From NCBI RefSeq assembly GCF_013409935.1, contig NZ_JACCCO010000003.1, positions 434,001 through 498,000 on the forward strand: DNA of 64,000 nucleotides, given 5' to 3'. This DNA is from Streptosporangium sandarakinum. Lineage in GTDB: Bacteria > Actinomycetota > Actinomycetes > Streptosporangiales > Streptosporangiaceae. The position numbers were made by a program, and so were the translations under genes. A model generated the notes under the pieces. It was given only the letters and a program-made list of their open reading frames with translations, did no database searches and was not told where the DNA came from. Positions 7,454-57,739 of the stretch are shown here, in pieces; within the stretch, counting starts at the first letter, position 1, and each line of letters opens with the position of its first letter.

Positions 7454-7466
7454 ACGCTGCAGATTC

Positions 7467-7550: not shown

Positions 7551-7636
7551 CGGCGCCGGTTGCGGCCAACGAAAAATCTACATTGTAAAGGCGTCGGGCG
7601 CGGACAGGACGAGAACGATCCCCCGCCGACGACCGG

Positions 7637-8128
7637 TCACCCCGATCCACCGGACGGCGGACGCCGCGGCCGGTCGGAGAGCGGCCAGACGTAGGGCAGC
7701 CCGTCCGGCTCGTCGCCGAAGATCGGGCGGTAGAACTCCGGGGACTTGCGCAGCAGCGCCGACCGGTGGCTGAGGTGCAGCTCCGGGTCGCCCAGCCAGG
7801 GCGGCAGCTCCCCGGCGGCGGCGAGCTCCGCCTGGGAGCGGGGCGCGGCGACGCCGAGGAGGCCGGACAGCTCCCGCGTCAGCTTGTCCGCGCAGGTGTC
7901 GGCCCGGCCCCCGGCGCACCACCGCTCGCAGACCTCCAGGCCGTACCTGACCAGCGCCTCCTCGTACCCGGCCCACATCCGCACCGCCGGGTGGTGGCGC
8001 CAGCCGTACCCCGGGACGGTCAGCGCGCGCAGCACCTGGATGGTCTCCACCCGCTGCTTGCCGAGCCGCAGGGGGTCGAGGACCCGTGCGGTGGCGGCGA
8101 AGTCGGGGTAGGGGAGGAAGGTCTGCAT
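7637..8128 (-). CDS. MSMEG_6728-family (pyrimidine-dimer DNA glycosylase-like) protein
   Basis: This 163-residue protein opens with MQTFLPYPDFAATARVLDP, followed by LRLGKQRVE and GYGWRHHPAVRMWAGYEEAL. These are hallmarks of the small actinobacterial family related to Pyr_excise, the T4 endonuclease V-like pyrimidine-dimer glycosylases. The conserved Arg/Lys/Glu patch near the N-terminus fits a DNA-repair enzyme, but biochemical proof for this branch is limited. The start ATG 8126-8128 is preceded by CGGGAGC. The last 12 residues are Pro/Gly-rich. The upstream gene on the other strand begins within 60 bases, so the promoters may be divergent. Confidence 0.75.
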   Translation of the reverse strand: MQTFLPYPDFAATARVLDPLRLGKQRVETIQVLRALTVPGYGWRHHPAVRMWAGYEEALVRYGLEVCERWCAGGRADTCADKLTRELSGLLGVAAPRSQAELAAAGELPPWLGDPELHLSHRSALLRKSPEFYRPIFGDEPDGLPYVWPLSDRPRRPPSGGSG

Positions 8129-8181
8129 CGCGGCTCCCGTACCCGCTTAACCCTGCGCATGTCCGAGATCAACGTCAAAAT

Positions 8182-9696: not shown

Positions 9697-9731
9697 GCGA
9701 AAGTGTCGGGGCGGCGTGGGAGGCTGGCCTC

Positions 9732-11438: not shown

Positions 11439-11613
11439 CGACGGGCGCGGCGCCGCGTGGGCCGTGCGGCGGCTCGCCGGTTCGGGGGCCGGGGCCGTAC
11501 GGGCGCCGACGGCCGGAACGTGGCGCGCCTCATCCCCCTGCATCCCCCTGCCGCCGGCGCCGGGACCGTACGGGCGCCGATGGCCGCCGGTGCCCGTACG
11601 GGGAGCCGGGGGG

Positions 11614-12900: not shown

Positions 12901-13094
12901 CCGGCTTTCAGGGGAAATATCGTCTTTTTCTGGGATGGATGAGGGGGTGCGCGTCACCAGTGAAGTCTGCCATCACTCATGACACCATTTGAAGCGATAT
13001 TCCGGTCCCCGCCGGGTGCGCGGACGGGGCGGTCTACGACGCGATCCATACCAGCCCGCCATGCCGGCCCCCGGGTGCGGGACGGGGCGGCCGG

Positions 13095-15242
13095 TCAGGC
13101 GTTCGGGGTGAAGGTGTCGAGGAAGACCTGCCGGAACGCCGCGCTCCTCCCCCAGTCGAGGTCCTGCACGGCGAACGTGATCCGGTAGGCGGTCGCGTCG
13201 TCCACCATGACGTACCGGGTGAGCCCGTGCATGGGCACGGCTCCGCCGGACACCGCGTAGGTGTACTCCAGGTCGGCGGCCTTCCAGTCGCGGTAGGGCA
13301 CCCGGGAGAGGCCGACCTCGGTGTACTCGTCCAGGCCGTTCCGGTCGGCGCGGCGCAGCGCGGTCATCGGGTCGGTCACCGGGACGGGGGTGACGGTGAC
13401 GCTCCGCCCGCTGTTCCTGGGGCCGGTGAACACGGTGCCGCCGTCGTCGCCCGGCTTGGCGGCCCAGCCCTTGGGCAGCGCCGCCGCGACGCCGGCCTCG
13501 CTGAGCCGCCGGTATCCGTCGGGGATCTCGGTCCGCGGCCGGTCCGGGGTCGCCGGGTCGGCGGGTGCCGAGGCGGCGGAGGAGCCGGGGCTCGTGGTGG
13601 CGGCCGGGGGCGCCGGGGCGTCCGAGGTGCGGGGCAGCAGCAGGACCAGCGCGGCGATCACCAGCACCAGCGCCACGGCCCCGCCCGCCGCCAGCATCCG
13701 CGGTGCCGGCCGGCCGCCGCCGGACCGGCCCTCCCGCCGCCGCGCGCCGGGGGCGCCGGGGTCCTCCGGCGCCGCGTGCCGCCGGCCGCGCAGGGGGGCG
13801 CCGGCGGCCGGCCGGGCCGCTGGAGCGTTCTCCGCGGGCGGTCGCGGGGAGGAGCCGGCCGTACCGGTGGGGGAGCCGGGCGGGGGGTCTCCGAAAAAGG
13901 GGGAGGAGAAGTCCGCGGAGGAGCTGCGCAGCGCGTCGTAGCCGCGCATCCCGGACGGGGAGCCGCCGGACGGCGGGCCCGGGAAGGGGGCGGTCTCGGG
14001 TCCGGACGCGGCCTGCGGGTCGTAGGGCACCCGCACCGGGCCGGAGGGGGTCTCGATGATCCGCGACGGCATCGGTCCGGGCGAAGGGGCCCGCGGGGCC
14101 GTGGGGCGGGCCGCCGGGGCGTCGGCGGGGAAGGACGCCTGAGCGCCGGAGGCGGGAAACCGCTCGGAGGAGGTGAGGAAGGGATCCTGCCCGGAGGGGC
14201 TCGGGAAGGGGTCCCGGGCGGTGGGGGCGGGGAAGGGTCCCCGCCCGGCGTCGTGGCCGAACGGGTCGGACGAGCCGGGCAGGTCGGACGGACCGGGCAG
14301 ACCGGACGGGCCGGGCAGACCGGACGGGCCGGGCAGACCGGACGGGCCGGGCAGACCGGACGGGCCGGGCAGCGCCTGTTCCAGCAGGCGGGCCGCCTCG
14401 GCGGCGGTCATCCGGCCGTCGGGGTCCCTGCGCAGCAGCCCCTCCAGGACCGGGGCCAGCGTCCCGGCCCGTACCGGCCGGACGGGCTCGCCGGAGAGGA
14501 TCTCGTTGAGCACCGTCATCGCGTCGGGCCCCTCGTACGGAGGGCGGCCCTCGACCGCGGTGTACAGCGTGGCGCCGAACGCCCACAGGTCGGCGGCGGG
14601 GGTGACCGCCCGGCCGGTCAGGCGCTCCGGCGGGACATAGGCGGGCGAGCCCACCAGCAGCCCGGCCAGCGGGGCGGCGCCGTCGTCCTCCAGCGCGGCG
14701 ATGCCGAAGTCGGTGAGCACCACCCGGTCGGCGGTCAGCAGCACGTTGCCGGGCTTGACGTCGCGGTGCAGGATCCCGGCGGCGTGGGCGTGGCGCAGCG
14801 CGTCGAGGACCCGGACGCCGATCTCGGCGGCCTGCGCCACCGGCAGCGGCCCGCCCTGCCGTACGGCCTGCTCCAGGGACCAGCCGCGGACCAGCTCCAT
14901 CACGATCCAGGGGCGGCCGTCCTCCTCGGCGACGTCGTGGACGGCGGCGATGCCCGGGTGGCTGAGCCGGGCCGCCGAACGGGCCTCGTGGATCATGCGC
15001 CGGTGGGCGGCCCGCGTGCCCGCGGGGTCGAGCCCGGGGGGCAGGATCAGCTCCTTGATCGCGACGTCGCGGTCGAGCAGCACGTCGTAGGCGTGCCACA
15101 CCCGGCCCAGGCCGCCGCGGCCCACCGGCGACACCAGCCGGTAGCGCCTGCCGATCAGCCTGTCCGGCCTCGGGACCGCACCCGGCGGGAGAGGCTCGCC
15201 GTCGGGTCCGGCAGGGGCGTCACCGGTCAAGCGATCGGTCAT
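13095..15242 (-). CDS. Membrane Ser/Thr protein kinase with extracellular domain
   Basis: This 715-residue Pkn-type kinase has its catalytic domain at about 34-295: GRGGLGRV (41-48), VAIK with K63, HRDVKPGN (159-166), DFG (178-180) and a PPERL activation-loop end. A long Pro/Ser/Gly-rich juxtamembrane region follows. It includes six LPGPSx hexapeptides coded by an 18-bp tandem repeat. One membrane helix (LAAGGAVALVLVIAALVLLL) then leads to an extracellular C-terminal domain of about 150 residues ending VFLDTFTPNA. That domain has no PASTA repeats. The start ATG 15240-15242 has GGAG upstream. The signal sensed is unknown. Confidence 0.9.
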   Translation of the reverse strand: MTDRLTGDAPAGPDGEPLPPGAVPRPDRLIGRRYRLVSPVGRGGLGRVWHAYDVLLDRDVAIKELILPPGLDPAGTRAAHRRMIHEARSAARLSHPGIAAVHDVAEEDGRPWIVMELVRGWSLEQAVRQGGPLPVAQAAEIGVRVLDALRHAHAAGILHRDVKPGNVLLTADRVVLTDFGIAALEDDGAAPLAGLLVGSPAYVPPERLTGRAVTPAADLWAFGATLYTAVEGRPPYEGPDAMTVLNEILSGEPVRPVRAGTLAPVLEGLLRRDPDGRMTAAEAARLLEQALPGPSGLPGPSGLPGPSGLPGPSGLPGPSDLPGSSDPFGHDAGRGPFPAPTARDPFPSPSGQDPFLTSSERFPASGAQASFPADAPAARPTAPRAPSPGPMPSRIIETPSGPVRVPYDPQAASGPETAPFPGPPSGGSPSGMRGYDALRSSSADFSSPFFGDPPPGSPTGTAGSSPRPPAENAPAARPAAGAPLRGRRHAAPEDPGAPGARRREGRSGGGRPAPRMLAAGGAVALVLVIAALVLLLPRTSDAPAPPAATTSPGSSAASAPADPATPDRPRTEIPDGYRRLSEAGVAAALPKGWAAKPGDDGGTVFTGPRNSGRSVTVTPVPVTDPMTALRRADRNGLDEYTEVGLSRVPYRDWKAADLEYTYAVSGGAVPMHGLTRYVMVDDATAYRITFAVQDLDWGRSAAFRQVFLDTFTPNA
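14265..14372 (-). repeat. Six tandem 18-bp units inside the kinase gene
   Basis: Six head-to-tail 18-bp units run from 14265 to 14372; the four at 14301-14372 are identical and the two at 14265-14300 have drifted. Each encodes a hexapeptide of the form LPGPSG, LPGPSD or LPGSSD in the linker between the kinase core and the membrane helix. The identity of the copies indicates recent slippage expansion. Confidence 0.85.
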
Positions 15243-15465
15243 CGTCTCCAGTCCCCCCGCAGGCAGCCTGATCTGTGAGGCTGGACACGATATAAGCCTT
15301 ACATTCAGTAATGAAAGTTGATGTTTGGCGAACCATTCGCAGACGGCATCGCCGATGCCCGTCCGCCACGGCCCGCCGCCTCCCGGACATCCGGGCTGAC
15401 GTCGTACGACGCGCCGCGGCCCGCGGCGGACCGGAGGACCGGCCACCGTCCGCCCGGCCCCGGAG

Positions 15466-16875
15466 TCAGCGCTCCGGTCCGCCGCCGGGGCCGGCCGCCT
15501 CGGCGGCGGCTGTCAGGGCCGTTGTGAAGGCCGACGCGGGCGGGCTCACCAGACCGGCGCCCACCTGCCCGGTGCCCGCGACCCGGCCCGCGATGCCGGT
15601 GTTGACCGCCGGCAGCAGCCCCGTCCGGGCGACCAGCGCGACGTCGACGCCCACCGGCGTGCCGCGGAAGCCGAGGACGGGGATCCGGTAGGCGGGGTGC
15701 TCGGCGAGGGTGATCTCGTACATGGACCGGGTGGCCCGCATCGCGTCCGGCACGTCGCCGCCGACGAACCTGACGATCGCCGGGGCCGCCGCCATCGCGA
15801 AGCCGCCCAGGCCGGCCGTCTCGGTGATGGTGGAGTCGCCGATGTCGGGGTTGGCGTCGGCCGGGCCGTACGCGCCGAGGTACAGCCCGTCCGGCACGCC
15901 CGCCGGGCCGGTGAACCAGCGGTCGCCCAGCCCGGAGACCTGGATCCCGAAGTCGGTGCCGTTGCGGGCCATCGCCACGACCACGGTGGAGCCGGGCACG
16001 TCCCGGGCGGCGTCGGCGCTCACCTTGCAGGCCGCCATGCCCGCGTTGAGGAAGAAGTGGTCGTTGCCGTGCACGAAGCGCAGCACCTCGGCCGCCCGGC
16101 CCGGCGCGGCGTCCACGATCGCCGCGGCCAGCTCGCGCACCAGCAGCGACGTGGCGGCGCGGTTGCGGTTGTGCAGCTCGTCGCCCATCTGCAGGGCCTG
16201 GGCGATCAGCGCCCCGAGGTCCAGCGGCCCGGTCAGCTCCAGCGCGGCCCGCAGCACCGGTCCCAGGACCTCGCCCATCCAGGTGAGCCGCCGCAGCACC
16301 TCCGGGCCGTAGGCGCCGTAGCGCAGCACCTTGCCCAGCCCCTCGTTGAGCGAGCAGAAGGCGGTGCCGCCGTGCTCGGCGTCGTGTACCTCCAGCATCC
16401 ACATCGACGGGCTGACCACCCCCGCCATCGGCCCCACGGTCCGGTGGCGGTGGCAGGGCTCCAGCCGGACGCGCCCGGCGGCCAGCAGCCTCCCGGCCTC
16501 CTCGGGGTCGCCGGCCAGTCCCTCCAGCAGCGCCGCCCCGACGAGCGCGCCGCGCATCGGCCCCGAGGCCCGCTCCCAGGTGATCGGCGGCCCGGCGTGC
16601 AGGAAGGTGCCCGGCGGCAGGTCCAGCGCCTCGCGCGCCGGCCGTACGGTGACCAGGCGGGGCCGGGCGGACACCAGGCGGCCGACGGCGACCTCGTTGG
16701 CCTCGGCCCTGCGCGGGTCGGCCAGCACCCGGGCGAGGTCGTCGCCGGTGCCCGGCATCGGCGGGCGCCAGTCCACCCGGATCCTCGGTACGGCCTGCGC
16801 GTCCAGCGCCTCGCCGAGCGGCTCGGCGCCGGCCGTGACCACCCGGAGCTCTCCGGAGAGCAGGGGCATCGTCAC
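15466..16875 (-). CDS. allG: DUF1116 protein, AllG subunit of oxamate carbamoyltransferase
   Basis: This 469-residue protein is of the DUF1116 (YlbE) family. Recognisable segments are HRHRTVGPMAGVVSPSMWM, SLNEGLGKVLRYGA, GDELHNRNRAATSLL and MARNGTDFGIQVSG. In Escherichia coli the fdrA-ylbE-ylbF trio is now assigned as AllFGH, which converts oxalurate and phosphate to oxamate and carbamoyl phosphate in anaerobic allantoin use. GTG 16873-16875 has GGAGGT 5 bases upstream; ATG 16869 is an alternative. The gene is third in the order allH-allF-allG, separated from allF by 88 bases. The function of the actinobacterial version is inferred. Confidence 0.8.
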   Translation of the reverse strand: MTMPLLSGELRVVTAGAEPLGEALDAQAVPRIRVDWRPPMPGTGDDLARVLADPRRAEANEVAVGRLVSARPRLVTVRPAREALDLPPGTFLHAGPPITWERASGPMRGALVGAALLEGLAGDPEEAGRLLAAGRVRLEPCHRHRTVGPMAGVVSPSMWMLEVHDAEHGGTAFCSLNEGLGKVLRYGAYGPEVLRRLTWMGEVLGPVLRAALELTGPLDLGALIAQALQMGDELHNRNRAATSLLVRELAAAIVDAAPGRAAEVLRFVHGNDHFFLNAGMAACKVSADAARDVPGSTVVVAMARNGTDFGIQVSGLGDRWFTGPAGVPDGLYLGAYGPADANPDIGDSTITETAGLGGFAMAAAPAIVRFVGGDVPDAMRATRSMYEITLAEHPAYRIPVLGFRGTPVGVDVALVARTGLLPAVNTGIAGRVAGTGQVGAGLVSPPASAFTTALTAAAEAAGPGGGPER

Positions 16876-16963
16876 GGGGCACCTCCGCGTGCGGAACGGC
16901 CCGCGAGGCGGTCGCCGGGCCGGTGGGTCGTCGCCGGGTGTTCCCGGGAGGGTTCGCGGGCCG

Positions 16964-18559
16964 TCATCGGGCACCCGCGGCCAGGGCGGCGGCGTGCCGG
17001 GCCGCCCGGGCGTTGGAGGCGAACACCGCCGCCCCGGCCGCGCGCAGCGCCTCGGCCTGGCCGCCGAGCCCCTGCGGGTCGCCCTCGGTGCCGACCAGCG
17101 CCACCACCACCGCCGTCCCCCGGGCGACGGCCGCGGCGACGGCTGGGGCGAGCCGCCGCGCAGGGTCGGGGTCGGCGCCGTGCCCGAGGACCACGTCCAG
17201 GAGCGCGACGTCACCGCCCGGCACGCCTGCCAGGGCCTCCAGCCGCAGCGTGGGGTCGATCATCGGGTGGGCCCGGCCGCGGGTGTAGGCGTCGTCGCCG
17301 AAGTCGGTGAACCGCCCGGTCCCGGCCACCAGCCGGGCCTCGGCGCACAGGGTGCCCCCGGCGTACAGGCCGTGCAGCGCCGCGCCGCTCCGGCGGGCCG
17401 GCCCGCCGGAGCCGGTCGGACCGCCCGCCTCAGCCGTTGCGGGCGGGGCCGTCGCCGCACCGCCCGGTTCCCCGGTCCCGTCGCCCGGTCCCCGCGCCCC
17501 GCCGTCCCCGGCCTTCCGGCCGGCCGGTCCCGGGGCGGGCCAGGAGGGCCAGGCGGGGACCGGCGCCCCGAGCGCACGCAGGGCGCTCTCGGCCGCCGCG
17601 GTCAGGTCGCCGTTCCCGGGGCCGAGCAGGGCGGCCACCACCGGCGTGGCGAGCCCGGCGGCGGCGTCCCGCACCGTCCGGGCCACCTCCGGGGCGGGGG
17701 GCTTGGAGACCAGGACGATCAGCTCGGTCGCCGGGTCGGCGTCGAGCGCGGCGAGGGCCCGGAGCGTGGACAGCCCGCCCACCTCCGCCGACAGGTCCCG
17801 GCCGCCCACGCCGAGCACGTGCCGCACGCCCACGCCCGCCAGGTCCAGCAGGCAGGCGACCTGCTGCGCGCCGGTGCCGGAGGCGGCGACCATCCCGACC
17901 GGGCCGGGCCGCAGCACGTTGGCGAAGCCCAGGCCGGTCCCGCCGATCACCGCGGTGCCGCAGTCGGGCCCCATGACCAGCACGTCCCGCTCGGCGGCCC
18001 GCCGCTTGAGCAGCACCTCCTGCTCGACGGGCACGTTGTCACTGAAGATCATCACCGGCAGGCCGGCCTCGATCGCGTCCATCGCCTCGGTGAAGGCGTA
18101 CGGTCCCGGCACCGAGACCAGGGCCAGCACCGGGCCGGGGTCCGCGGCGAGGGCGCGGGCGGCGGCGCCGACCGTGCGCGGGGCGAGCCCGGCCGCACCG
18201 CCGAAGCCGCCGGGGTCCCCGAAGCCCCCGAAGCCGCCGGGGCCGTCCAGGCCCGCCGGGCCACCGCCCCCGCCGCCCGCCGTACGGCTCGCCAGGCCGG
18301 CCAGCAGCCGGTCCAGCTCGGCGGCGGCGGCCTCCAGGGCGGCCGGGTCCTCACCCCGCAGCGCGACCAGCAGGTCGCCCGGACCGGCCTCGGGCAGGCC
18401 GAAACCCAGGTCGGCGGCGACGCCGCGGTTGAGGCCGGTGGCCATCGCCACCAGGGCGACCTCGACGCCGGGCAGGTCGGAAGCCGTCCGGCTGACCCGC
18501 ATCAGGGTGACCGAGTCGTGGTAGGCGCCCGCGCGCACCCGGACCAGATCGACGCTCAT
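16964..18559 (-). CDS. allF: FdrA-like protein, AllF subunit of oxamate carbamoyltransferase
   Basis: This 531-residue protein of the FdrA family is built like succinyl-CoA synthetase alpha/ATP-citrate-lyase chains. It has a CoA-binding-type region with SDNVPVEQEVLLKRRA, the motif VMGPDCGTAVIGGTGLGFAN, and a second ligase-like domain ending in LLDVVLGHGADPDP. Two Gly/Pro-rich inserts (about 110-130 and 375-420) are absent from enteric FdrA. The start ATG 18557-18559 overlaps the allH stop (ATGA), so the subunits are translationally coupled. Acyl-CoA synthetase activity should not be assumed; the neighbours argue for oxamate carbamoyltransferase. Confidence 0.85.
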   Translation of the reverse strand: MSVDLVRVRAGAYHDSVTLMRVSRTASDLPGVEVALVAMATGLNRGVAADLGFGLPEAGPGDLLVALRGEDPAALEAAAAELDRLLAGLASRTAGGGGGGPAGLDGPGGFGGFGDPGGFGGAAGLAPRTVGAAARALAADPGPVLALVSVPGPYAFTEAMDAIEAGLPVMIFSDNVPVEQEVLLKRRAAERDVLVMGPDCGTAVIGGTGLGFANVLRPGPVGMVAASGTGAQQVACLLDLAGVGVRHVLGVGGRDLSAEVGGLSTLRALAALDADPATELIVLVSKPPAPEVARTVRDAAAGLATPVVAALLGPGNGDLTAAAESALRALGAPVPAWPSWPAPGPAGRKAGDGGARGPGDGTGEPGGAATAPPATAEAGGPTGSGGPARRSGAALHGLYAGGTLCAEARLVAGTGRFTDFGDDAYTRGRAHPMIDPTLRLEALAGVPGGDVALLDVVLGHGADPDPARRLAPAVAAAVARGTAVVVALVGTEGDPQGLGGQAEALRAAGAAVFASNARAARHAAALAAGAR

Positions 18560-19506
18560 CCGTCCCGCCCTCCGGCCCGCGCGGCTCCGTTCGCCCCGTC
18601 CCCGGCCCGCGCGGCTCCGTTCGCCCCGTCCCCGGTGAGCGCGACGACGGCGGTCAGGCCGATGCGCAGGCCCCACGCGAGGTCGGCCCCGGAGGTGTGG
18701 CCGAGCCGGAGCAGCCGCTCCAGCGCGGGCTCAAGGGGCGACCCGCCGGTCAGGCCCCGGAGGACGGCCAGCACCTCCGCGCACGCCTGGCCCCGCGCGG
18801 CGCAGTGCAGCAGCGTGGCCGAGACCGCGGTGGTCCGGCCGCGCGCGTCGAAGGCGACCGCCGCGCCCAGCCGGTCGGCCAGCCGTACGGCGCGGCGTGC
18901 CCCGGCCGCCGTCCCCAGGTGGCGCAGCGCCACGAGCGTCCCGGCGAGCACGTCGTCGCCGCTCGGGGTCAGCCCGGGACCCAGCCCGACGAGGCGTTCG
19001 GCGGCCGTGACGCAGTCGTGCGGCGAGGCCCGCGCGCACCCGGCGGCCAGCAGCCCGGTGGCGTCGGAGCCCTCCAGCCCCGGCCGCCGCGGCGACCGGT
19101 CGCACACCCCGGCCAGCACCGGCAGCGCGGCGGCCAGCCGCGCCGGGCCGGCCCGGCCCGGCGGCGGCGCCGGATCCCACCAGCGCCGCACCCCCAGGCG
19201 CAGCCGTTCCAGCTCCACCGCGCCGTCGCCGACCCACGCCTCGTCGCCCACGGCGGCCGCCGGCGGCGTCCCGGCGGTCACCAGCGCGTTGGGCAGCCGG
19301 ACGGCCCCGCCGGTCGTCACCGCCACCACGCGCGGCTCAAGCTCCGCGCGGACCTCCAGATAGATCGCCGAGGGGAACACCGCCAGCACCCGCGCGGGCC
19401 GCCGGGGCGCCTCCAGCACCGGCCGCAGGGCCGCGCTCGCCGCGCCGGTCGCGTCCGCCCGCACCGGGGACGACCGCGGTCCCCTCGGGCATGCCGTGAC
19501 GCTCAT
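18556..19506 (-). CDS. allH: DUF2877 protein, AllH subunit of oxamate carbamoyltransferase
   Basis: This 316-residue DUF2877 (YlbF) protein has the family core GLGPGLTPSGDDVLAG around residue 190, followed by ARGRTTAVSATLLHCAARGQ. ATG 19504-19506 has GGGGAGG 4 bases upstream. The gene is first of allH-allF-allG and lies back to back with pucR, so the 137-base gap should hold both promoters. The last 25 residues contain a duplicated GDGANGAARA from a 33-bp DNA repeat at about 18563-18628, which looks like a recent, probably neutral, expansion. Confidence 0.8.
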   Translation of the reverse strand: MSVTACPRGPRSSPVRADATGAASAALRPVLEAPRRPARVLAVFPSAIYLEVRAELEPRVVAVTTGGAVRLPNALVTAGTPPAAAVGDEAWVGDGAVELERLRLGVRRWWDPAPPPGRAGPARLAAALPVLAGVCDRSPRRPGLEGSDATGLLAAGCARASPHDCVTAAERLVGLGPGLTPSGDDVLAGTLVALRHLGTAAGARRAVRLADRLGAAVAFDARGRTTAVSATLLHCAARGQACAEVLAVLRGLTGGSPLEPALERLLRLGHTSGADLAWGLRIGLTAVVALTGDGANGAARAGDGANGAARAGGRDG

Positions 19507-19581
19507 TCCGCCTCCCCGCCGGCCGTCCCCCGTCGAGCCGACCGTAGAACGGCAGGTGAGGCGGGCCGTACGGGTAAAGAT

Positions 19582-19634
19582 GCCAACGCTCGGCCGGAGA
19601 GTTGGCTCTTCCTGACAGGGGTCCCATCGGTCAG
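19582..19634. promoter_or_regulatory. Inverted repeats in the allH-pucR divergent promoter
   Basis: Two dyads sit between the divergent allH and pucR starts. One is GCCAAC (19582-19587) with GTTGGC (19601-19606), spaced 13 bases. The other is CTGAC (19612-19616) with GTCAG (19630-19634). They lie within 65 bases upstream of the pucR ATG and are candidate PucR sites, but no binding consensus is known to me for this subgroup. Confidence 0.35.
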
Positions 19635-19643
19635 AATCAGCGC

Positions 19644-21209
19644 ATGGAACCTCCCGTGCGGCCGGCGAGCACCGGAACGATCATCCACGGTGTCGCGGTC
19701 GGGGAGGTGCTGGGCGTCTCCGCGCTGGCCGGGGCGCGGCTGATCGCCGGGGAGCGCGGGCTGGGCCGGATCGTGCAGCGGCTCAACGTGATGGAGGTCC
19801 CCGACATCCTGGCCTGGGTCAAGCCGCACGAACTGCTGCTCACCACCGGCTACCCGCTGCGCAACACCCCGCAGTCGCTCGGCCGGCTGGTGGCCGACCT
19901 CGACGAGCGGGGCCTGGCGGCGCTCGCCGTCAAGCCGGGCCGTTACCTCGACCGGCTGCCCGCGGAGATGGCGGAGCAGGCCGACCGCCTGGGGTTCCCG
20001 CTGATCCGGCTCCCCGACGGCGTCGGGTTCGACGACATCCTCAACCAGGTCCTCACCGACATCCTCAACCGGCAGGCGGCGGTGCTGGCCCGCGCCGAGG
20101 AGGCCCACCGGGCGCTGGTGCAGGTCGTGCTGGCCGGCGGCGGCCTGCGGGAGGTGACGGCGGAGGTCGCCGGGCTGCTCGGGGTGGCGGTGGCCGTGCT
20201 CGACCGGGGCGACCGCACGCTCGCCGCCGCCGGGCCCGCCGAGTACCTGGCCGCGCTGCGCAGCGCCCCGGAGGGCAGCCGCACCTCCGTCCCCGTCGTC
20301 GCGGGCGGCCACCACCACGGCCGCATCGTCGCCTGCGGGCCGGTCGGCTCGATCGCCGGCAGCGACGTCGGCATTCTGGAACGTGCCGCCACGGTCGCCG
20401 CGCTGGTCGTGACCCGGCAGGAGGCGGTCAACGCGGTGGAGAGCAAGTATCGCGCCGACTTCCTGCGCGACGTGCTGACCGGCCGGGACGGCGATCCCGC
20501 CCGCGTCGCGGCGCGCGCCCGGACCTTCGGCTGGGAGCTGGAGCGCCCGGTCACCGTGCTGGTGGCCGAGCTCGACCCCGGCGGCGGCGACGAGCGCGCC
20601 GCCCAGGACCGCCTGCCGGCCTGCTGGGCCGCGGCGGTGCGCCGCCACGACCCGCGCGGCGCGGTGGCGGGTTTCTCCCACGAGGTCGTCGCCGTCGTGG
20701 ACGCCGCCGCCGACGTCGCGCGCCTGGCCAAGGACGCCGCCGCGGCCTTCGCCGAGTGCGCGCCCGCGACCTTCTCCACGGGCGCCAGCCGTACCGCCCC
20801 GGCCGTCGAGGGGCTGCCCGACGCGTACGGCCAGGCGCTGAAGGCGGCCCGGGTGGGCCGGCAGCTCCACGGTCCCGGCGCGGTCGCCCACTTCGACCAG
20901 CTCGGCGTCTACCGCCTGCTGTCGCTGGTCGGCGACACCGGCGAGCTGCACGCCTTCGTCCGCGAGACCCTCGGCCCGCTCGCCTCCGACGACGACCCCG
21001 AGAACGCCGACCTGCGCCGGACCCTCCAGGTGCTGCTGGAGACCAACCTCAACGTCGCCGAGACGGCCCGCAGGCTGCACTTCCACTACAACACGCTGCG
21101 TTACCGGATCGGCAAGCTGGAGCGCATGCTGGGGGGCTTCACCGAGGACGCCCATCTGCGGCTGAACCTCACGCTGGCCCTGCACGTCCTGCGGATGCGC
21201 GGCATCTAG
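19644..21209 (+). CDS. pucR: PucR-family purine-catabolism regulator
   Basis: This 521-residue PucR-type regulator has an N-terminal PucR domain (about 20-140, starting VGEVLGVSALAGARLIAG) that senses a purine-pathway metabolite in Bacillus PucR. A GGDEF-like central part (CdaR type) follows, and a C-terminal helix-turn-helix reading LNVAETARRLHFHYNTLRYR. ATG 19644 was chosen over the upstream in-frame ATG 19602 because it lies at the homologues' usual start. The gene is divergent from allHFG and upstream of the permease and molybdenum-hydroxylase genes, so it is the obvious candidate regulator of the whole region. It ends 10 bases before the S4 gene. Confidence 0.88.
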   Translation: MEPPVRPASTGTIIHGVAVGEVLGVSALAGARLIAGERGLGRIVQRLNVMEVPDILAWVKPHELLLTTGYPLRNTPQSLGRLVADLDERGLAALAVKPGRYLDRLPAEMAEQADRLGFPLIRLPDGVGFDDILNQVLTDILNRQAAVLARAEEAHRALVQVVLAGGGLREVTAEVAGLLGVAVAVLDRGDRTLAAAGPAEYLAALRSAPEGSRTSVPVVAGGHHHGRIVACGPVGSIAGSDVGILERAATVAALVVTRQEAVNAVESKYRADFLRDVLTGRDGDPARVAARARTFGWELERPVTVLVAELDPGGGDERAAQDRLPACWAAAVRRHDPRGAVAGFSHEVVAVVDAAADVARLAKDAAAAFAECAPATFSTGASRTAPAVEGLPDAYGQALKAARVGRQLHGPGAVAHFDQLGVYRLLSLVGDTGELHAFVRETLGPLASDDDPENADLRRTLQVLLETNLNVAETARRLHFHYNTLRYRIGKLERMLGGFTEDAHLRLNLTLALHVLRMRGI

Positions 21210-21219
21210 ACTCTGGAGG

Positions 21220-21438
21220 GTGAACGAGACCTTCGAGCTGGAAACCGACTACATTCCGCTCTGCGACCTGCTGAAGTACTGCGCCGTCACCGACACCGGG
21301 GGCCAGGCCAAGCACTTCATCGCCGAGGGGAACGTCATGGTCGACGGTGAGGTCGAGACCCGCAAGACCCGCAAGATCCGCGGGGGTCAGGTCGTGACCG
21401 GCGACGGTTTCGAGATCCGGGTGGTCGCCGCCCGGTAA
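21220..21438 (+). CDS. S4-domain RNA-binding protein (YbcJ/YaaA-like)
   Basis: This 72-residue protein is almost wholly one S4 RNA-binding domain: LCDLLKYCAVTDTGGQAKHF, then IAEGNVMVDGEVETRKTRK and an IRGGQVV strand. Such stand-alone S4 proteins bind structured RNA, often on ribosomal subunits. GTG 21220 follows CTGGAG directly and is 10 bases after the pucR stop, so the two are probably co-transcribed. The link to purine catabolism is likely accidental. Confidence 0.8.
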   Translation: MNETFELETDYIPLCDLLKYCAVTDTGGQAKHFIAEGNVMVDGEVETRKTRKIRGGQVVTGDGFEIRVVAAR

Positions 21439-21493
21439 GGCCGCCACGGCCCGTTGGGCCCGCCGGGGGAGTGGGACGGCGGCCGGGATCCGG

Positions 21494-21522
21494 CTGCCGA
21501 CCGGGATGATCGGTTTCGGCAG
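21494..21522. promoter_or_regulatory. 29-bp dyad upstream of the permease gene
   Basis: CTGCCGA (21494-21500) pairs perfectly with TCGGCAG (21516-21522), and the inner ACCG and CGGT also match. The dyad is about 120 bases upstream of the permease ATG in the 205-base gap after the S4 gene. It could be an operator for PucR or an RNA hairpin. No known purine riboswitch core was recognised here. Confidence 0.35.
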
Positions 21523-21643
21523 TTCGTGCCAGTGCGAGAAGTGACAGGGCGGGCCTAAGGTGCCCGCAGCGAACAGCTTGGGATTCGGGAGGGATGCCTA
21601 CGGGGCGGCCACCGACCGACGGCCCGGTGAAAGGTAGGGCTTG

Positions 21644-23029
21644 ATGGTTGCAGGTTGGACCAAGCACGGTGACGGCAGGCACCTGGCACCCGGCGAGGTG
21701 GTGCGACCGGACGAGCGGCTGTCGTGGCCACGGATGATCGGATTCGGGGCCCAGCACGTCGTCGCGATGTTCGGCGCCACGTTCGTCTTCCCTCTCGTCA
21801 TGGGGCTCGACCCCAACGTCGCCATCATGTTCTCGGGCGTGGCGACGATCATGTTCCTGCTCATCGTGCGCGGGAAGATCCCCAGCTACCTCGGCAGCAG
21901 CGCCTCGTTCGTGGGCGGCGTGCTGGCCATCCGGGCGCTGTACGGCGGCGACACCCCGGCCGGCGACGCGGTCGTCACCGGGGCGATCCTGCTGGTCGGC
22001 CTGGTGCTGGCCCTGGTGGGCCTGGCCATCCACTTCGTCGGCGTGCAGATCATCCACCGGGTGTTCCCGCCGGTCGTCACCGGCGGCGTCGTCATGCTGA
22101 TCGGGTTCGGCCTGGCCTACGTCGTCGCCGACGTCTACTGGCCCAGCGACCAGTGGATCGCGCTGATCACCATGGTCGTCACGTTTCTGATCATCGTGGC
22201 GTTCCGCGGGTTCATCGGGCGGATCGGCATCCTCCTCGGGCTGGTCATCGGCTTCGTGCTGTCCTGGGCGGCCGACCGCGTCCTCGGCGACATCACCGCC
22301 TACAACGCCGGGACCGGGAAGATCGACACCCACCCCCGGGTGAACCTCGACGCGGTGGCGAGCGCCGACTGGATCGGCCTGCCGAACATGCACCTGCCCG
22401 ACATCAAGGTCTCGGCCGCGCTGCTGGTGCTGCCCGCGGTGATCGCGCTGATCGCCGAGAACGTCGGCCACGTCAAGGCGGTCGGCGAGATGACCGGCAC
22501 CGACGTCGACCCCTACCTGGGCCGGGCGATCGCCGCCGACGGCGTCACCACCGTGGTCGCCACCGCCTTCGGCGGCTCCCCGACCACCACCTACGCCGAG
22601 AACATCGGCGTCATGGCCGCCACCCGGGTCTACTCCACGGCCGCCTACTACATCGCGGCCGTCATCGCGATCCTCTTCGGCCTGTGCCCGAAGTTCGGCG
22701 CGCTGGTGGCGGCCACCCCGAACGGCGTGCTCGGCGGCATCACGGTGATCCTCTACGGCATGATCGGCCTGCTCGGCGCGAAGATCTGGATCGAGAACCG
22801 CGTCGACTTCTCCAACCCGATCAACATGGTTCCGATCGGGGCGGGCATCATCCTCGCCATCGGCCCGGTCAAGCAGATGTTCGGCTCCGACTTCGCGCTG
22901 GAGGGCATCGCCCTGGGCACCATCGTCGTCGTGGGCGGCTACCACCTGCTGCGGGTCGTCTCCCGGCAGAGCGGGGCCGCGGAGGCCCCGGCGGAGGGGG
23001 CCGGGCAGACCCGGGAGGCATCGGGATGA
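21644..23029 (+). CDS. NCS2-family xanthine/uracil permease
   Basis: This 461-residue nucleobase/cation symporter-2 protein has about 14 hydrophobic segments. The family signatures are FGAQHVVAMFGATFVFPLV near the N-terminus, IALIAENVGHVKAVGEMTG, and AFGGSPTTTYAENIGVM, where Glu and the TTTYAENIG loop form the base-binding site. ATG 21644 has AAAGGTAGGG upstream. The context (PucR, hydroxylase, allFGH) favours xanthine or another purine as substrate over uracil. The stop overlaps an ATGA with the small repeat ORF that follows. Confidence 0.88.
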   Translation: MVAGWTKHGDGRHLAPGEVVRPDERLSWPRMIGFGAQHVVAMFGATFVFPLVMGLDPNVAIMFSGVATIMFLLIVRGKIPSYLGSSASFVGGVLAIRALYGGDTPAGDAVVTGAILLVGLVLALVGLAIHFVGVQIIHRVFPPVVTGGVVMLIGFGLAYVVADVYWPSDQWIALITMVVTFLIIVAFRGFIGRIGILLGLVIGFVLSWAADRVLGDITAYNAGTGKIDTHPRVNLDAVASADWIGLPNMHLPDIKVSAALLVLPAVIALIAENVGHVKAVGEMTGTDVDPYLGRAIAADGVTTVVATAFGGSPTTTYAENIGVMAATRVYSTAAYYIAAVIAILFGLCPKFGALVAATPNGVLGGITVILYGMIGLLGAKIWIENRVDFSNPINMVPIGAGIILAIGPVKQMFGSDFALEGIALGTIVVVGGYHLLRVVSRQSGAAEAPAEGAGQTREASG

Positions 23030-23229
23030 CGGACGGGCGCCGCGGATCCCGGGCCGGACGGCCGGGCGGGAGTGACCTCGGGGTGACGGCCGGACACGGC
23101 CGGTCCCGGGCCGGACGGCCGGGCGGGAGAGGCCCCGGGCCGACGGCCGGGCATGGCCGGTCCCGGGCCGGACGGCCGGGCGCGGGAAGCCCCGGGCCGA
23201 ACGTGCGGACGCGGGGGATACCTGGATGA
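23026..23229 (+). CDS. Small Arg/Gly/Pro repeat ORF, coupled on both sides (hypothetical)
   Basis: A 67-codon frame starts at ATG 23026, overlapping the permease stop as ATGA. It ends at TGA 23227-23229, overlapping the next gene's ATG in the same way. It is made of three copies of a 19-residue unit containing RAGRPG and TAGHG. The peptide is basic and low in complexity and resembles no family I know. The exact fit between two coupled junctions is the only argument for translation; it may instead be a neutral repeat expansion that kept the reading frame open. Confidence 0.4.
   Translation: MTDGRRGSRAGRPGGSDLGVTAGHGRSRAGRPGGRGPGPTAGHGRSRAGRPGAGSPGPNVRTRGIPG
23047..23217. repeat. 57-bp tandem repeat, three imperfect copies
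   Basis: Copies start at 23047, 23104 and 23161, each opening TCCCGGGCCGGACGGCCGGG. The period of exactly 57 bases (19 codons) keeps the frame of the small ORF at 23026-23229. Between-copy differences are few, suggesting a fairly recent expansion. Confidence 0.85.
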
Positions 23230-24095
23230 AGCCGCCCCCGTTCGAGTACCACGCCCCCCGTTCCGTCGCCGAGGCGATGGAGGTCCTGGCCGCGGCCGGA
23301 CCGGAGGGCAAGGTGCTCGCGGGAGGCCAGAGCCTGATCCCCCTGCTGAACATGCGGCTGGCCGCCCCCGGTCACCTCGTCGACGTCAACCGGCTCACCG
23401 GGCTGGACACGGTCGAGGTCGAACCGGGGGGCGTGCGGGTCGGCGCGCTGGCCAGGCACGCCCGCGTGGAGCGGTCGGCCGGGGCGGCCGCCGCCCAGCC
23501 GCTGCTGCGCCAGGCGCTGCGGCTGGTCGCCCACCCGGTGATCCGCAACCGGGGCACGGTCGTCGGCAGCCTGGTGCACGCCGACCCCGCCGCCGAGCTG
23601 CCCGCGGTGCTGGCCCTCCTCGGCGGTTCGGTACGGCTGGCCCGGCCCGGCGCGGTCCGCGACGTCCCGGCCGCCGGTTTCTTCACCGGCCCCCTGGAGT
23701 CGGCCGCCGAGCCGGGCGAGCTGGCCCTCTCGGCGTTCTTCCCCGCCCTCGGCCCGCGCTGCGGCACCGCCTTCCACGAGGTGGCGCGGCGGCACGGCGA
23801 CTACGCCCTGGCCGGGGTCGCGGCGCTGGTCCGCCTGGACGACGGCCTGCGCGTCACCACCGCCCGGGCGGTGTGCGTGAGCGCGGGCCCGGTCCCGGTC
23901 GTGGTGGACGTCACCGGCCACGCCTGCGCGGACGGCTGGGCCGCGGCGGCGCGGGACGTGGCGAAGCGGGTCGAGCCGGAGGACGACATCCACGCGAGCG
24001 CGGCCTACCGGCGGCACCTGACCGGCGTCCTGGCCGAGCGGGCGCTGCGGGAGGCGGCGGCGTCCGCGGCGGGCGACGTGGGTACGAGGCGGTGA
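23226..24095 (+). CDS. Molybdenum hydroxylase FAD-binding subunit (CoxM/XdhB type)
   Basis: This 289-residue protein is the medium FAD subunit of a xanthine-dehydrogenase-family enzyme. The FAD loops are AGGQSLIPLLNMRLA (about 37-51) and HPVIRNRGTVVGSLVHADPA, with the CO-dehydrogenase flavoprotein C-terminal domain after them. The start ATG 23226 overlaps the preceding small ORF. It works with the 2Fe-2S and molybdopterin subunits that follow, in the M-S-L order usual in bacteria. The FAD passes electrons from the substrate to an acceptor. Xanthine or hypoxanthine is the likely substrate from context, which the sequence alone does not prove. Confidence 0.85.
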   Translation: MKPPPFEYHAPRSVAEAMEVLAAAGPEGKVLAGGQSLIPLLNMRLAAPGHLVDVNRLTGLDTVEVEPGGVRVGALARHARVERSAGAAAAQPLLRQALRLVAHPVIRNRGTVVGSLVHADPAAELPAVLALLGGSVRLARPGAVRDVPAAGFFTGPLESAAEPGELALSAFFPALGPRCGTAFHEVARRHGDYALAGVAALVRLDDGLRVTTARAVCVSAGPVPVVVDVTGHACADGWAAAARDVAKRVEPEDDIHASAAYRRHLTGVLAERALREAAASAAGDVGTRR

Positions 24096-24217
24096 ACGGG
24101 CCGTACGGCCCGGCGGACGGCGCGACGGGCGTGATGGGCGGGACGGGCGGCGCGGCGGCCGGGAGACGGTGAGCCCGGCCCCGGACGCGGCGACGAGCGG
24201 TGAGGAGCGGTGAGCCG

Positions 24218-24856
24218 ATGACGAACATCGCGGTCACACTGACCGTGAACGGGGTGGTCCGGCGGGCCGAGGTGCCCGGAAGGCGGCTGCTGTCCGACTG
24301 CCTGCGCCACGACCTCGGCCTGACCGGCACCCACGTCGGGTGCGAGCACGGGGTCTGCGGCTGCTGCACCGTGCTGCTGGACGGCGAGCCGGTGCGTTCC
24401 TGCCTGACGCTGGCCGCCACCGCCGACGGCCACGAGATCACCACGGTGGAGGGGCTGGCCGGGCCGGACGGGGAGCCGTCGCCGGTGCAGCGGGCCTTCG
24501 CCGAGTGCCACGGCCTGCAGTGCGGCTTCTGCACCCCGGGCTTCCTGTGCACGGTCACCGCCCTGCTGCGCGACAACCCGGCGCCGAGCGAGGAGGAGGT
24601 GCTGGAGGGGCTCTCCGGCAACCTCTGCCGCTGCACGGGCTACCAGAACATCGTCAGGTCCGTCCGCCGCGCCGCCGAGCTCATCGCCGGGGAGGACGAC
24701 GGCGGCCCGGCCGGGTGGCCGTCCGGGCCGGTCCGGACGTCCGGGGACGCCGAAGACACCGGCCATGCCGGGCCCGCCGGGGACGCCGAAGGTGCCGGGC
24801 GTGCCGGGATCGCCGGGGGCGCGACCGGGGAGCGCGCCGGGGCGGAGGGGGCATGA
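24218..24856 (+). CDS. Molybdenum hydroxylase 2Fe-2S subunit (CoxS/XdhC type)
   Basis: This 212-residue protein has both iron-sulfur sites of the family. The plant-ferredoxin-type cluster has C42, C47, C50 and C62; the second, helical-domain cluster has C102, C105, C137 and C139. The usual protein ends near residue 160. Here about 50 Gly/Ala/Asp-rich residues follow (AGPAGDAEGAGRAGIAGGAT), an unusual disordered tail. ATG 24218 has GGTGAG 3 bases upstream. The stop overlaps the large-subunit ATG (ATGA). The 122-base gap before it holds a short GTGA-coupled frame that I do not call a gene. Confidence 0.88.
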   Translation: MTNIAVTLTVNGVVRRAEVPGRRLLSDCLRHDLGLTGTHVGCEHGVCGCCTVLLDGEPVRSCLTLAATADGHEITTVEGLAGPDGEPSPVQRAFAECHGLQCGFCTPGFLCTVTALLRDNPAPSEEEVLEGLSGNLCRCTGYQNIVRSVRRAAELIAGEDDGGPAGWPSGPVRTSGDAEDTGHAGPAGDAEGAGRAGIAGGATGERAGAEGA

Positions 24857-27240
24857 CGACCAGGCTGTTCGGCGAGCCGGTGCCGCGCCGCGAGGACCCG
24901 CGCCTGCTCACCGGGCGGGGCCGCTATCTGGACGACCTCGGCGCGGGCGCGCTGGAGGCGGCCTTCGTCCGCTCCCCGCACGCTCATGCCCGCATCCTCG
25001 ACATCGACGTCTCCGCGGCGATCGAGGTCGAGGGACTGGTGGCGATCTACACCTGGGAGGACCTGCCGGAGGAGGTCGGCGCGCCGCTGCCGCTGCTCAT
25101 CCCGCATCCGGCGCTGACCCACGGCCGCACCGCCCGCCCGCTGGCCCGCGACGTCGTACGGCACGTCGGCGAGCCGGTCGTGATGGTCGTCGCCCGCGAC
25201 CGCTACCTCGCCGAGGACGCCTGCGCGCTCATCCGGGTCGACTACGAGCCCGCCGAGGCCGTCGTCGGCGTGGAGACGGCGACGCGCTCGGCCCGGCTCG
25301 TCCACGACGACGTGCCGGGCAACGTCGGCGCGCACCTGGTGCAGGAGGTGCCCTCGGCGGCCGGGCTCGGCGCCCGTGAGGCGATCGATGCCGCCCCGCA
25401 CACCCTGTCCTTCCGCCTCGACATCGAGCGCAGCGCCTCCATGCCGCTGGAGGGCCGCGGGGTCTACGCCCGGTGGGACGCCGACGACCGCTCCCTGCGG
25501 ATCTACTCCAGCACCCAGACCTCCACCAGCGTCCGGATGGCGGTCGCGGCCCGGCTGGGCCTGCCGCTGACCAAGGTCGAGGTCATCGCCCCCGACGTGG
25601 GCGGCGGGTTCGGCGTCAAGATCGTCCATCCGTGGCCGGAGGAGGTCCTCGTCCCCTGGGCCGCCATGCTGCTCGGCCGCGAGGTCAAGTGGACCGAGGA
25701 CCGGCGCGAGCACTTCGTCTCCTCCGCCCACGAGCGGGCCCAGGTGCAGCACGTGCGGGTCGGCTTCGACGACGCCGGCCGGGTGCTGGGCCTGGACGTG
25801 ACGATCCTGCACGACCACGGGGCCTACACGCCGTACGGGATCATCGTGCCGATCATCACCGCCACCCAGCTTCCGGGCCCGTACCGGATCGGCGCCTACC
25901 GGGTCGAGTTCTCCTCCGTCTACACCAACACCGTGCAGGTCACGCCGTACCGGGGGGCGGGCCGCCCCCAGGCGGCCTTCTGCATGGAGCGGACCATGGA
26001 CCGCATCGCCGCCCACCTCGGCCTGGACCGTACGGCGGTGCGCGAGGCGAACTTCATCCAGCCGGACGAGTTCCCCTACGACCAGGGCCTGACCTTCCAG
26101 GACGGCCGCCCGCTGATCTACGACAGCGGCGACTACCCCGAGTCGCTGCGGATGCTCAAGGAGCTCATCGGCTGGGACTCCTTCGGCGAGCTCAGGGCCC
26201 GCGCCGCGGCCGAGGGGCGGCGGCTCGGCATCGGGCTCGGCTGCTACGTGGAGGGCACCGGCGTCGGCCCCTACGAGGGCGGCCACGTCCAGATCACCTC
26301 CGACGGCCGGGTGCACGTCTCCACCGGCCTGACCTCCCAGGGGCAGGGCCACGAGACCGCGTTCGCCCAGATCGCCGCGGCCGAGCTGGGAGTGCCGCTG
26401 GAGCGGGTCTCGGTGGTCACCGGCGACACCCGCAGGTTCGGCTACGCGGTCGGCACGTTCGCCTCGCGGGCCGCGGTGATGAGCGGCAACGCGATCGCGC
26501 TGGCCTGCCGCAGGGTGCGGGAGAAGGCGCTGCGGATCGCCGCCGACGCGCTGGAGGCCGACCCGGGCGACCTGGAGATCGTCGACGGCGAGGTCCGGGT
26601 GGCCGGCACGCCCGGCGTGGCCGTGCCGCTGGCCACGGTGGCGGTGCTGGCCAACCCGCTGCGCTACGCCTTCGACGCCGAGGCGGCCCGCGCCACCCAG
26701 TTCGCCGGGACGCCCTCCCCGGACCGGCCGCCGGTGGCCGAGGGGGAGGAGCCGGGGCTGGAGGGACGCGACTACTACTCGCCGGTCCGCTCGACCTTCG
26801 CCTCCGGCATGCACGCGGCGATCGTCGAGACCGACCCGCTGACCGCCGAGATCCGCGTCCTGCGCTACGCCGTCGTCCACGACTGCGGCAACCTGGTCAA
26901 CCCGATGATCGTCGAGGGGCAGATCCACGGCGGCGTCGCCCAGGGAGTGGGCGGCGCGCTGTACGAGCGCATGGTCTACGACGAGCACGGGCAACTGCTG
27001 AACGCCTCGTTCATGGACTTCCTGATGCCCTACGTCACCGAGGTGCCGCGGATCGAGACCGCGCACCTGCGGACCCCGTCCCCGCTGAACCCCCTGGGCA
27101 TCAAGGGCGCCGGGGAGGCCGGGGTCATCCCGGTGTCGGCGGTGATCGCCTCGGCGGTGGAGGACGCCGAGGGCATCCGGATCGACCGGATGCCGATCTC
27201 CCCGTCGGAGCTGTTCGACCTGCGCCGCGCGGCCGGCTGA
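24853..27240 (+). CDS. Molybdenum hydroxylase large subunit, molybdopterin-binding (CoxL/XdhA type)
   Basis: This 795-residue subunit binds molybdopterin cytosine dinucleotide. PYRGAGRP at about 365-372 marks the non-CO branch; form I CO dehydrogenases have AYRCSFR. Gln/Gly-rich GLTSQGQGHETAFAQIA and GIKGAGEAG, with catalytic E755, complete the active site. The start ATG 24853 overlaps the 2Fe-2S stop. The CO-dehydrogenase label often given to such proteins is therefore not supported. Flanking purine genes suggest hydroxylation of hypoxanthine, xanthine or a related N-heterocycle. No maturation factor (XdhC chaperone) is present in the window. Confidence 0.88.
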   Translation: MTTRLFGEPVPRREDPRLLTGRGRYLDDLGAGALEAAFVRSPHAHARILDIDVSAAIEVEGLVAIYTWEDLPEEVGAPLPLLIPHPALTHGRTARPLARDVVRHVGEPVVMVVARDRYLAEDACALIRVDYEPAEAVVGVETATRSARLVHDDVPGNVGAHLVQEVPSAAGLGAREAIDAAPHTLSFRLDIERSASMPLEGRGVYARWDADDRSLRIYSSTQTSTSVRMAVAARLGLPLTKVEVIAPDVGGGFGVKIVHPWPEEVLVPWAAMLLGREVKWTEDRREHFVSSAHERAQVQHVRVGFDDAGRVLGLDVTILHDHGAYTPYGIIVPIITATQLPGPYRIGAYRVEFSSVYTNTVQVTPYRGAGRPQAAFCMERTMDRIAAHLGLDRTAVREANFIQPDEFPYDQGLTFQDGRPLIYDSGDYPESLRMLKELIGWDSFGELRARAAAEGRRLGIGLGCYVEGTGVGPYEGGHVQITSDGRVHVSTGLTSQGQGHETAFAQIAAAELGVPLERVSVVTGDTRRFGYAVGTFASRAAVMSGNAIALACRRVREKALRIAADALEADPGDLEIVDGEVRVAGTPGVAVPLATVAVLANPLRYAFDAEAARATQFAGTPSPDRPPVAEGEEPGLEGRDYYSPVRSTFASGMHAAIVETDPLTAEIRVLRYAVVHDCGNLVNPMIVEGQIHGGVAQGVGGALYERMVYDEHGQLLNASFMDFLMPYVTEVPRIETAHLRTPSPLNPLGIKGAGEAGVIPVSAVIASAVEDAEGIRIDRMPISPSELFDLRRAAG

Positions 27241-57714: not shown

Positions 57715-57739
57715 CGACCACCACCGACGGAGGTTGATC

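Follow-up and report, generated by a model that had tools for sequence, protein, structure and literature searches.

A 64,000-nucleotide stretch of the Streptosporangium sandarakinum genome (RefSeq assembly GCF_013409935.1, contig NZ_JACCCO010000003.1, positions 434,001 to 498,000; called the window below) carries homologues of the three subunits of the AllF-AllG-AllH carbamoyltransferase (AllFGH), together with genes for a PucR-type regulator, an NCS2 nucleobase permease and a three-subunit molybdenum hydroxylase of the CoxMSL type. In which pathway do these genes act? For E. coli, AllFGH is described in the available text of PMC11326118 as oxamic transcarbamylase. We found that the partner of the trio outside the window belongs to the barbiturase family, which points to pyrimidines, and we consider it about 70% probable that the locus forms the core of an oxidative, energy-conserving pathway of pyrimidine breakdown, in which all substrates and reaction directions as well as the regulation are predicted.

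According to this proposal, the NCS2 permease would import uracil, which the CoxMSL enzyme would oxidise to barbiturate. The barbiturase, encoded approximately 60 kb away, would open the ring to give ureidomalonate, and the AllF-AllG-AllH-like complex would split ureidomalonate phosphorolytically into malonamate and carbamoyl phosphate, thereby replacing a hydrolytic ureidomalonase. Carbamate kinase would gain ATP from carbamoyl phosphate, an amidase and malonate enzymes would complete the breakdown (the malonate roles being guesses), and PucR would control the divergent promoters. In structure, oxalurate, its CH2 homologue ureidomalonate, and carboxybiuret are alike except for what lies between the carboxylate and the acylurea, namely nothing, CH2 and NH, respectively. 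Judged from structure, this likeness makes an oxalurate transcarbamylase a natural candidate for acting on ureidomalonate.

Gene content of the locus

The genes at 15466-27240 of the window are listed here with the evidence for each assignment.

15466-16869, minus strand: AllG-like (DUF1116) subunit of a predicted ureidomalonate carbamoyltransferase (PF06545, 319 bits; AllG tree)
16964-18559, minus strand: FdrA/AllF-like subunit (PF00549 CoA-ligase domain; NF004760, 346 bits, under the cut-off of 433)
18556-19506, minus strand: AllH-like (DUF2877) subunit (PF11392, 96 bits)
19582-19606, no strand: inverted repeat GCCAAC-N13-GTTGGC, candidate PucR operator in the divergent AllH/PucR region
19644-21209, plus strand: PucR-type regulator (PF07905, PF17853, PF13556)
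21220-21438, plus strand: S4-domain protein of 72 amino acids, YbcJ/YaaA-like, between PucR and the permease (PF13275)
21644-23029, plus strand: NCS2 nucleobase permease, predicted uracil importer (PF00860; best NCBIfam model RutG)
23226-24095, plus strand: coxM-type FAD subunit of the predicted uracil hydroxylase (PF00941, PF03450)
24218-24856, plus strand: coxS-type 2Fe-2S subunit (PF01799, PF00111)
24853-27240, plus strand: coxL-type molybdopterin subunit, predicted to hydroxylate uracil to barbiturate (PF02738, PF20256; NF040766; co-occurrence with the barbiturase family)

The Pfam matches confirmed the predicted arrangement, with the trio back to back with PucR, followed by the permease and the three-subunit hydroxylase. 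With the proposed starts, homologues of AllF, AllG and AllH are adjacent, and the plus-strand genes encode the FAD, 2Fe-2S and two molybdenum cofactor-binding domains of a molybdenum hydroxylase of the xanthine oxidase family. Genes were called with simple open reading frame (ORF) callers rather than a trained gene finder, the first of which gave antisense artefacts and the second fewer, and the starts are fitting Met codons that we picked. The ORF listed as CoxL (24340-27240) is too long, and we propose 24853-27240 instead.

A barbiturase-type enzyme is encoded outside the window

The genome has one match to PF09663, at C3:510567-511634, outside the window and about 60 kb from AllG. Against proteins of the PDB, its product scored 587 bits with Barbiturase 5hwe, compared with 321 bits for the best cyanuric acid hydrolase (6bum). 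Five specificity positions, according to the available text of PMC3758960, are Asn, His, Lys, Val and Ser/Ala in barbiturase and Arg, Thr, Arg, Gly and Gly in cyanuric acid hydrolase. With N210, H340, K344, V364 and A365, the S. sandarakinum protein is barbiturase-type at all five, corresponding to Group VI of the AtzD/Bar family. These residues indicate a barbiturase-type enzyme, and hydrolysis of barbiturate is predicted. The NCBIfam model NF052395 would label the same protein cyanuric acid amidohydrolase (472 bits against a cut-off of 360); the barbiturase-type protein at L101:12489-13643 would receive this name.

Across the 131 loci with a match, the signature was NHKVA in 106, NHKVS in six, NHKVG in five and RTRGG in 12, the last including two plasmids from Raoultella and Aminobacter. 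The match at L070 is cut short, and the protein at L118 is unlike both signatures. Both these 131 loci and the 107 barbiturase loci used below include repeats of one genome (for example L122/G396 and L152/G402). At L118:7028-12063 (genome G181), an amidase gene, the AtzD-family gene without the barbiturase signature and coxL/coxM occur together, and AllG was not found in that genome.

AllG, the barbiturase family and CoxL occur in the same genomes

Among 60 relatives, AllG was present in 36 and PF09663 in 37, with both in 35; AllG occurred alone in G038, and PF09663 without AllG in G434 and G447. A CoxL scoring above the NF040766 cut-off was found in 34 relatives, all of which have PF09663 and 32 of which have AllG. 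All three are missing from 10 of the 36 genomes of the window's family, the S. sandarakinum genome being counted in the 36, which suggests that the genes were gained or lost together. In a sample of 396 Actinomycetota, 49 genomes have AllG and 27 have PF09663, with an overlap of 22. Here CoxL exceeded the NF040766 cut-off in 30 genomes, and in the 24 where it reached at least 1387 bits, AllG was present in 23 and PF09663 in 21. The six lower-scoring genomes comprise three with AllG and without PF09663 (G032, G135, G157) and three with PF09663 and without AllG (G181, G192, G297). For AllG with PF09663, Fisher's test gave p values of 4e-13 among the relatives and 4e-18 in the phylum sample, with independence inflated by kinship; these tables, like the adjacency of carbamate kinase described below, were tallied by hand. 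The contig scan covered the best 80 of 552 relatives, most of which are Streptosporangiales or closely related to them. A search meant to find Rhodococcus clusters gave matches in 8 of 78 genomes of the genus of G050, at 39-42% identity.

The neighbourhood is conserved, and compact clusters contain further genes of the proposed pathway

For the gene neighbourhood we chose 60 AllG loci of 7.6-20 kb from among the matches in relatives and Actinomycetota. The barbiturase group, defined by the presence of PF09663 in the genome, has 46 loci, namely 44 of the 60 fetched, the window and one Embleya plasmid, whose regions lack annotated genes, so that we called the ORFs ourselves. The bit thresholds for tblastn were set by us, and several loci end at a contig or locus boundary. 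At these thresholds, FdrA was found in 46 of the 46 loci, AllH in 41, coxM in 37, coxS in 36, PucR in 32, coxL in 31, the permease in 25, carbamate kinase in 11, a PF09663-type barbiturase in 10 and the amidase in seven. Of three sister loci (L072, L074, L081), coxM, coxS, coxL and hyuA were each found in two, the permease in one and barbiturase in none. The genomes of L074 and L081 lack PF09663; at these two loci AllG is accompanied by HyuA/HyuB and a CoxL of lower score, and HyuAB may open the ring there. The remaining 13 actinobacterial AllG loci, five of which are extra copies, had no PucR, permease, coxL or barbiturase; coxM and coxS were found in one, FdrA in five and carbamate kinase in six.

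In other classes we observed compact clusters that combine a barbiturase-type PF09663 gene with an NCS2 permease, carbamate kinase, AllHFG, cox genes, CoxG, an amidase and hyuA/hyuB, some of them adding a cytosine-deaminase-like gene that scores below its cut-offs. Thus the neighbourhood, which the original prediction had suggested checking, recurs across relatives and other classes and is not unique to one strain.

Of the 37 relatives that have PF09663, 23 show a carbamate kinase match whose end lies at most 140 bp upstream of the PF09663 match on the same strand (in G451 in two pieces), as would be expected if the barbiturase product feeds carbamoyl phosphate. In G433 the distance is 3.3 kb. 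Only carbamate kinase fragments lie beside the barbiturase-family gene at G414:C50:351992-352326, which looks like a decaying gene.

The CoxMSL-type hydroxylase

To our knowledge, no gene has been assigned to the uracil-oxidising first step of the oxidative pathway. From context and co-occurrence, we predict that the CoxMSL-type molybdenum hydroxylase oxidises uracil to barbiturate. The window's CoxL passes NF040766, a model named for the large subunit of aerobic CO dehydrogenase, with 1502 bits against a cut-off of 950. As had been noted from the sequence, it has PYRGAGR (residue 365) instead of the CO-dehydrogenase motif; PYRGAGR is present in all 33 CoxL matches checked, and the AYxCSFR active-site motif of form I Mo-Cu CO dehydrogenase in none of them. 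A KGxGE stretch, which we take to be the catalytic Glu site of the family, was found in the 17 of these 33 matches that are long enough, the other 16 stopping earlier at the end of the locus or match. The enzyme shares its subunit types with form II CoxL/NF040766 enzymes, and PYRGAGR resembles AYRGAGR, the motif of form II. Differences are the gene order M-S-L, which the available text of PMC13203968 gives for form I, and the predicted substrate, uracil rather than CO. The same text states that CoxL surveys relying on homology, KO or COG may also collect form II enzymes, the role of which is called unclear. Two genomes of one genus have a second CoxL above the NF040766 cut-off (approximately 1055 bits; G398:C1:331774 and G403:C5:340821).

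AllG groups and the question of allantoin

In a tree of 67 AllG rows, the groups follow the genomic contexts. All 46 AllG proteins of the barbiturase group lie on one side of a branch (100/98), separate from E. coli AllG; second and third copies (L060-L064) were labelled apart and left out of the 46. The nearest company of E. coli AllG in the tree is a pair of Actinomycetota loci, L085 and L086 (100/100), the former having AllD above the cut-off (516 bits). The AllG pair from the Raoultella and Aminobacter plasmids belongs to six rows that cluster together (99/95), the other four being L057, L065, L083 and an E. coli plasmid. Odd composition was flagged for E. coli, L085, L086, L213, L215 and L216, the tree positions of which are thus less sure. 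On the two plasmids, L213 (Raoultella plasmid, 7773-15414) and L214 (Aminobacter pSR8, 7427-12520) suggest a second ring-opening route ending in an AllFGH-type step. A further ureide context is seen at L216 (E. coli pEC5931-1, 5807-13985) and L057:8423-12995, where FdrA/DUF1116 and carbamate kinase lie beside a cysteine hydrolase or a BiuH-like gene; the BiuH-like gene is that of L057 and scores 278 bits, under the cut-off of 370.

AllD, the enzyme that makes oxalurate, exceeded its cut-off in none of the 60 relatives (15 had weaker matches), and no AllD match was found in the S. sandarakinum genome. Allantoinase was present in 25 of the 36 relatives with AllG and in 11 of the 24 without it (Fisher p 0.11). 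The original prediction had stated that no allantoinase, ureidoglycolate dehydrogenase or carbamate kinase was present. Outside the window, however, the genome encodes both allantoinase (C1:1091546) and carbamate kinase (C1:1072325). The allantoinase scores 562 bits, above the cut-off; its gene adjoins that for glycerate kinase, and an xdhB-type gene is nearby. The prediction had also suggested that the trio may serve a different purine or N-heterocycle route. A use other than allantoin and the conserved neighbourhood of PucR, permease and hydroxylase are supported by our data, but a purine route is not; in 35 of the 36 AllG genomes among the relatives, the partner is the barbiturase family.

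Permease, PucR and a candidate operator

Among the NCBIfam models that name a substrate, RutG gave the window's permease its highest score (349 bits); the models for uracil permease and xanthine permease gave 265 and 149 bits, and each of the three scores is below its cut-off. The inverted repeat GCCAAC-N13-GTTGGC between AllH and PucR is the sole exact copy in the genome, with none near the barbiturase; it therefore has the appearance of a local operator and provides no regulon evidence for the pathway. With one substitution and a spacer of 10-18 allowed, 21 of 34 loci (near kin for the most part) have a relaxed form of the repeat upstream of PucR. We looked for a regulon link from this repeat to the barbiturase operon and found none. 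The small S4-domain gene downstream of PucR is also present at other loci (15 of the 46 in the barbiturase group).

Other genes of the window

Some genes farther along the window have homologues near barbiturase genes and are possible members of the pathway.

35739-36473, plus strand: CoxG-family protein (PF06240), possible pathway member; at the bit threshold that we set, found close to barbiturase in 2 of 107 loci
47596-50142, plus strand: HyuA-like subunit (PF01968, PF05378), possible pathway member; 12 of 107 loci
50203-52107, plus strand: HyuB-like subunit (PF02538), possible pathway member; 13 of 107 loci
57734-58894, plus strand: Family III CoA-transferase (PF02515), at a guess for malonate activation; 25 of 107 loci
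58928-60424, plus strand: AccD/AccA-like carboxyltransferase (PF01039, PF03255), at a guess for malonyl-CoA decarboxylation; 24 of 107 loci

Of four window genes used as controls, the MFS, ADH and ABC genes were found at none of the 107 barbiturase loci and the gene at 60400-61644 at one. The hyu, CoA-transferase and carboxyltransferase genes may participate in the pathway.

Discussion

The proposed pathway can be compared with further known systems besides the CoxL-type hydroxylases. Like E. coli AllFGH, the window's trio has three homologous subunits and is predicted to cleave an N-carbamoyl amide with phosphate to carbamoyl phosphate; unlike it, the trio belongs to a separate AllG group, comes without an AllD match and with a barbiturase-type partner, and would act on ureidomalonate, one CH2 longer than oxalurate. 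With the oxidative pyrimidine pathway of barbiturase and ureidomalonase, as far as it is covered by the available text of PMC3758960, it would share the barbiturate intermediate and a Group VI-type barbiturase. That pathway ends in hydrolysis to urea and malonate, whereas here we predict an energy-conserving phosphorolysis and have candidate genes for the oxidation of uracil. The Raoultella and Aminobacter plasmid cassettes also join a ring-opening amidohydrolase with AllFG-type genes and carbamate kinase, but they have the signature of cyanuric acid hydrolase, another AllG group and no coxMSL match. Among the open-licence literature of PubMed Central we found no paper that joins these genes.

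Several observations weigh against our proposal. The hydrolytic end of the known pathway (PMC3758960, available text) is itself one. In the S. sandarakinum genome, the barbiturase lies about 60 kb from AllG and has no adjoining carbamate kinase, the sole full carbamate kinase sits near arginine deiminase, and the candidate operator was not found near the barbiturase; in its relaxed form, the repeat occurred upstream of carbamate kinase/barbiturase in only 1 of 100 loci. The window's permease was found at 250 bits or more in none of the 107 barbiturase loci; the NCS2 permease that the compact clusters contain is thus more distantly related. In five barbiturase-type proteins of compact clusters (L068, L073, L078, L084, L090), Gly takes the place of the published Ser/Ala at the fifth specificity position, with the other four positions still barbiturase-type. 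Because of kinship between genomes, the Fisher values exaggerate independence. Of the 49 AllG genomes in the phylum sample, 27 lack PF09663. Exceptions are also seen among individual genomes: G434 and G447 have CoxL and PF09663 without AllG, G428, G435 and G451 have AllG and PF09663 without a CoxL above the cut-off, and G418 has AllG and PF09663 without a full-length carbamate kinase match. G032 and G157 combine AllG and HyuA/B with a CoxL that is above the cut-off yet lower (1137 and 1129 bits) and have no PF09663, suggesting that this enzyme group may not always act on barbiturate. Lastly, PF09663 genomes contain five additional AllG copies that lie outside the group and would break it up if counted by genome.

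We weighed four other explanations. Within the same pyrimidine pathway, AllFGH could act on a different ureide, such as methyl-ureidomalonate derived from thymine, while the amidase hydrolyses ureidomalonate. The presence of the amidase in compact clusters (7 of the 46 group loci), the hydrolytic end of the known pathway in the available text of PMC3758960, and L118, which has the amidase, AtzD-family gene and coxL/coxM without AllFGH, would all fit this variant. However, the L118 protein lacks the barbiturase signature, and a carbamate kinase gene lies directly upstream of the barbiturase-family gene in 23 of 37 relatives; we consider the variant unlikely. If instead the trio were an ordinary oxamate (oxalurate) carbamoyltransferase in purine or allantoin use, CoxMSL would be a xanthine dehydrogenase. 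The genome does encode an allantoinase, at 562 bits, PucR regulators are named after purine catabolism, and the E. coli enzyme has the oxamate/oxalurate role in the available text of PMC11326118. Nevertheless, AllD is above its cut-off in none of the 60 relatives and without a match in S. sandarakinum (another source of oxalurate being possible), the association with allantoinase is weak (p 0.11), and the window's AllG is not part of the group that holds E. coli AllG and the locus with AllD, rows that are flagged for composition. On these three grounds we rejected the allantoin route as the leading explanation; the permease, moreover, is RutG-like, and we regard this alternative as quite unlikely.

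The AtzD-family gene and AllFGH might also serve the breakdown of cyanuric acid, with carboxybiuret as the AllFGH substrate. Such a combination is suggested by the Raoultella and Aminobacter plasmids, which join an AtzD-family gene of cyanuric signature with fdrA, DUF1116 and arcC, and by the name that NF052395 gives the S. sandarakinum protein (472 bits over 360). Yet this protein is barbiturase-type at 5 of 5 positions and closest to 5hwe, the plasmid AllG proteins belong to another group and neither plasmid locus has a coxMSL match, making the explanation very improbable; for the S. sandarakinum genome itself, we rejected a cyanuric acid route on the basis of the signature residues. That CoxMSL is a CO dehydrogenase in a coincidental neighbourhood, as the NF040766 name would have it (1502 bits over 950), is hardly credible given that the form I motif AYxCSFR occurs in 0 of 33 matches, that the available text of PMC13203968 calls the role of form II unclear, and that PF09663 is present in all 34 relatives with a CoxL of the NF040766 type.

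Beyond the oxidative breakdown of uracil that we favour for this locus, AllFGH-type enzymes could be general phosphate-dependent cleavers of N-carbamoyl amides, with separate clades for oxalurate (allantoin), ureidomalonate (uracil/barbiturate) and carboxybiuret-like substrates (the cyanuric plasmids), and the NF040766 group could be a uracil oxidiser; we would give this generalisation even odds. If our proposal is correct, it would provide genes for the oxidation of uracil and for a phosphorolytic, ATP-yielding end of oxidative pyrimidine breakdown. It would also correct NCBI names, as the hydroxylase is now called CO dehydrogenase and the barbiturase cyanuric acid amidohydrolase, and give jobs to two mis-named enzyme groups. 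In this way the locus may offer a role for one CoxL group of the wider form II kind.

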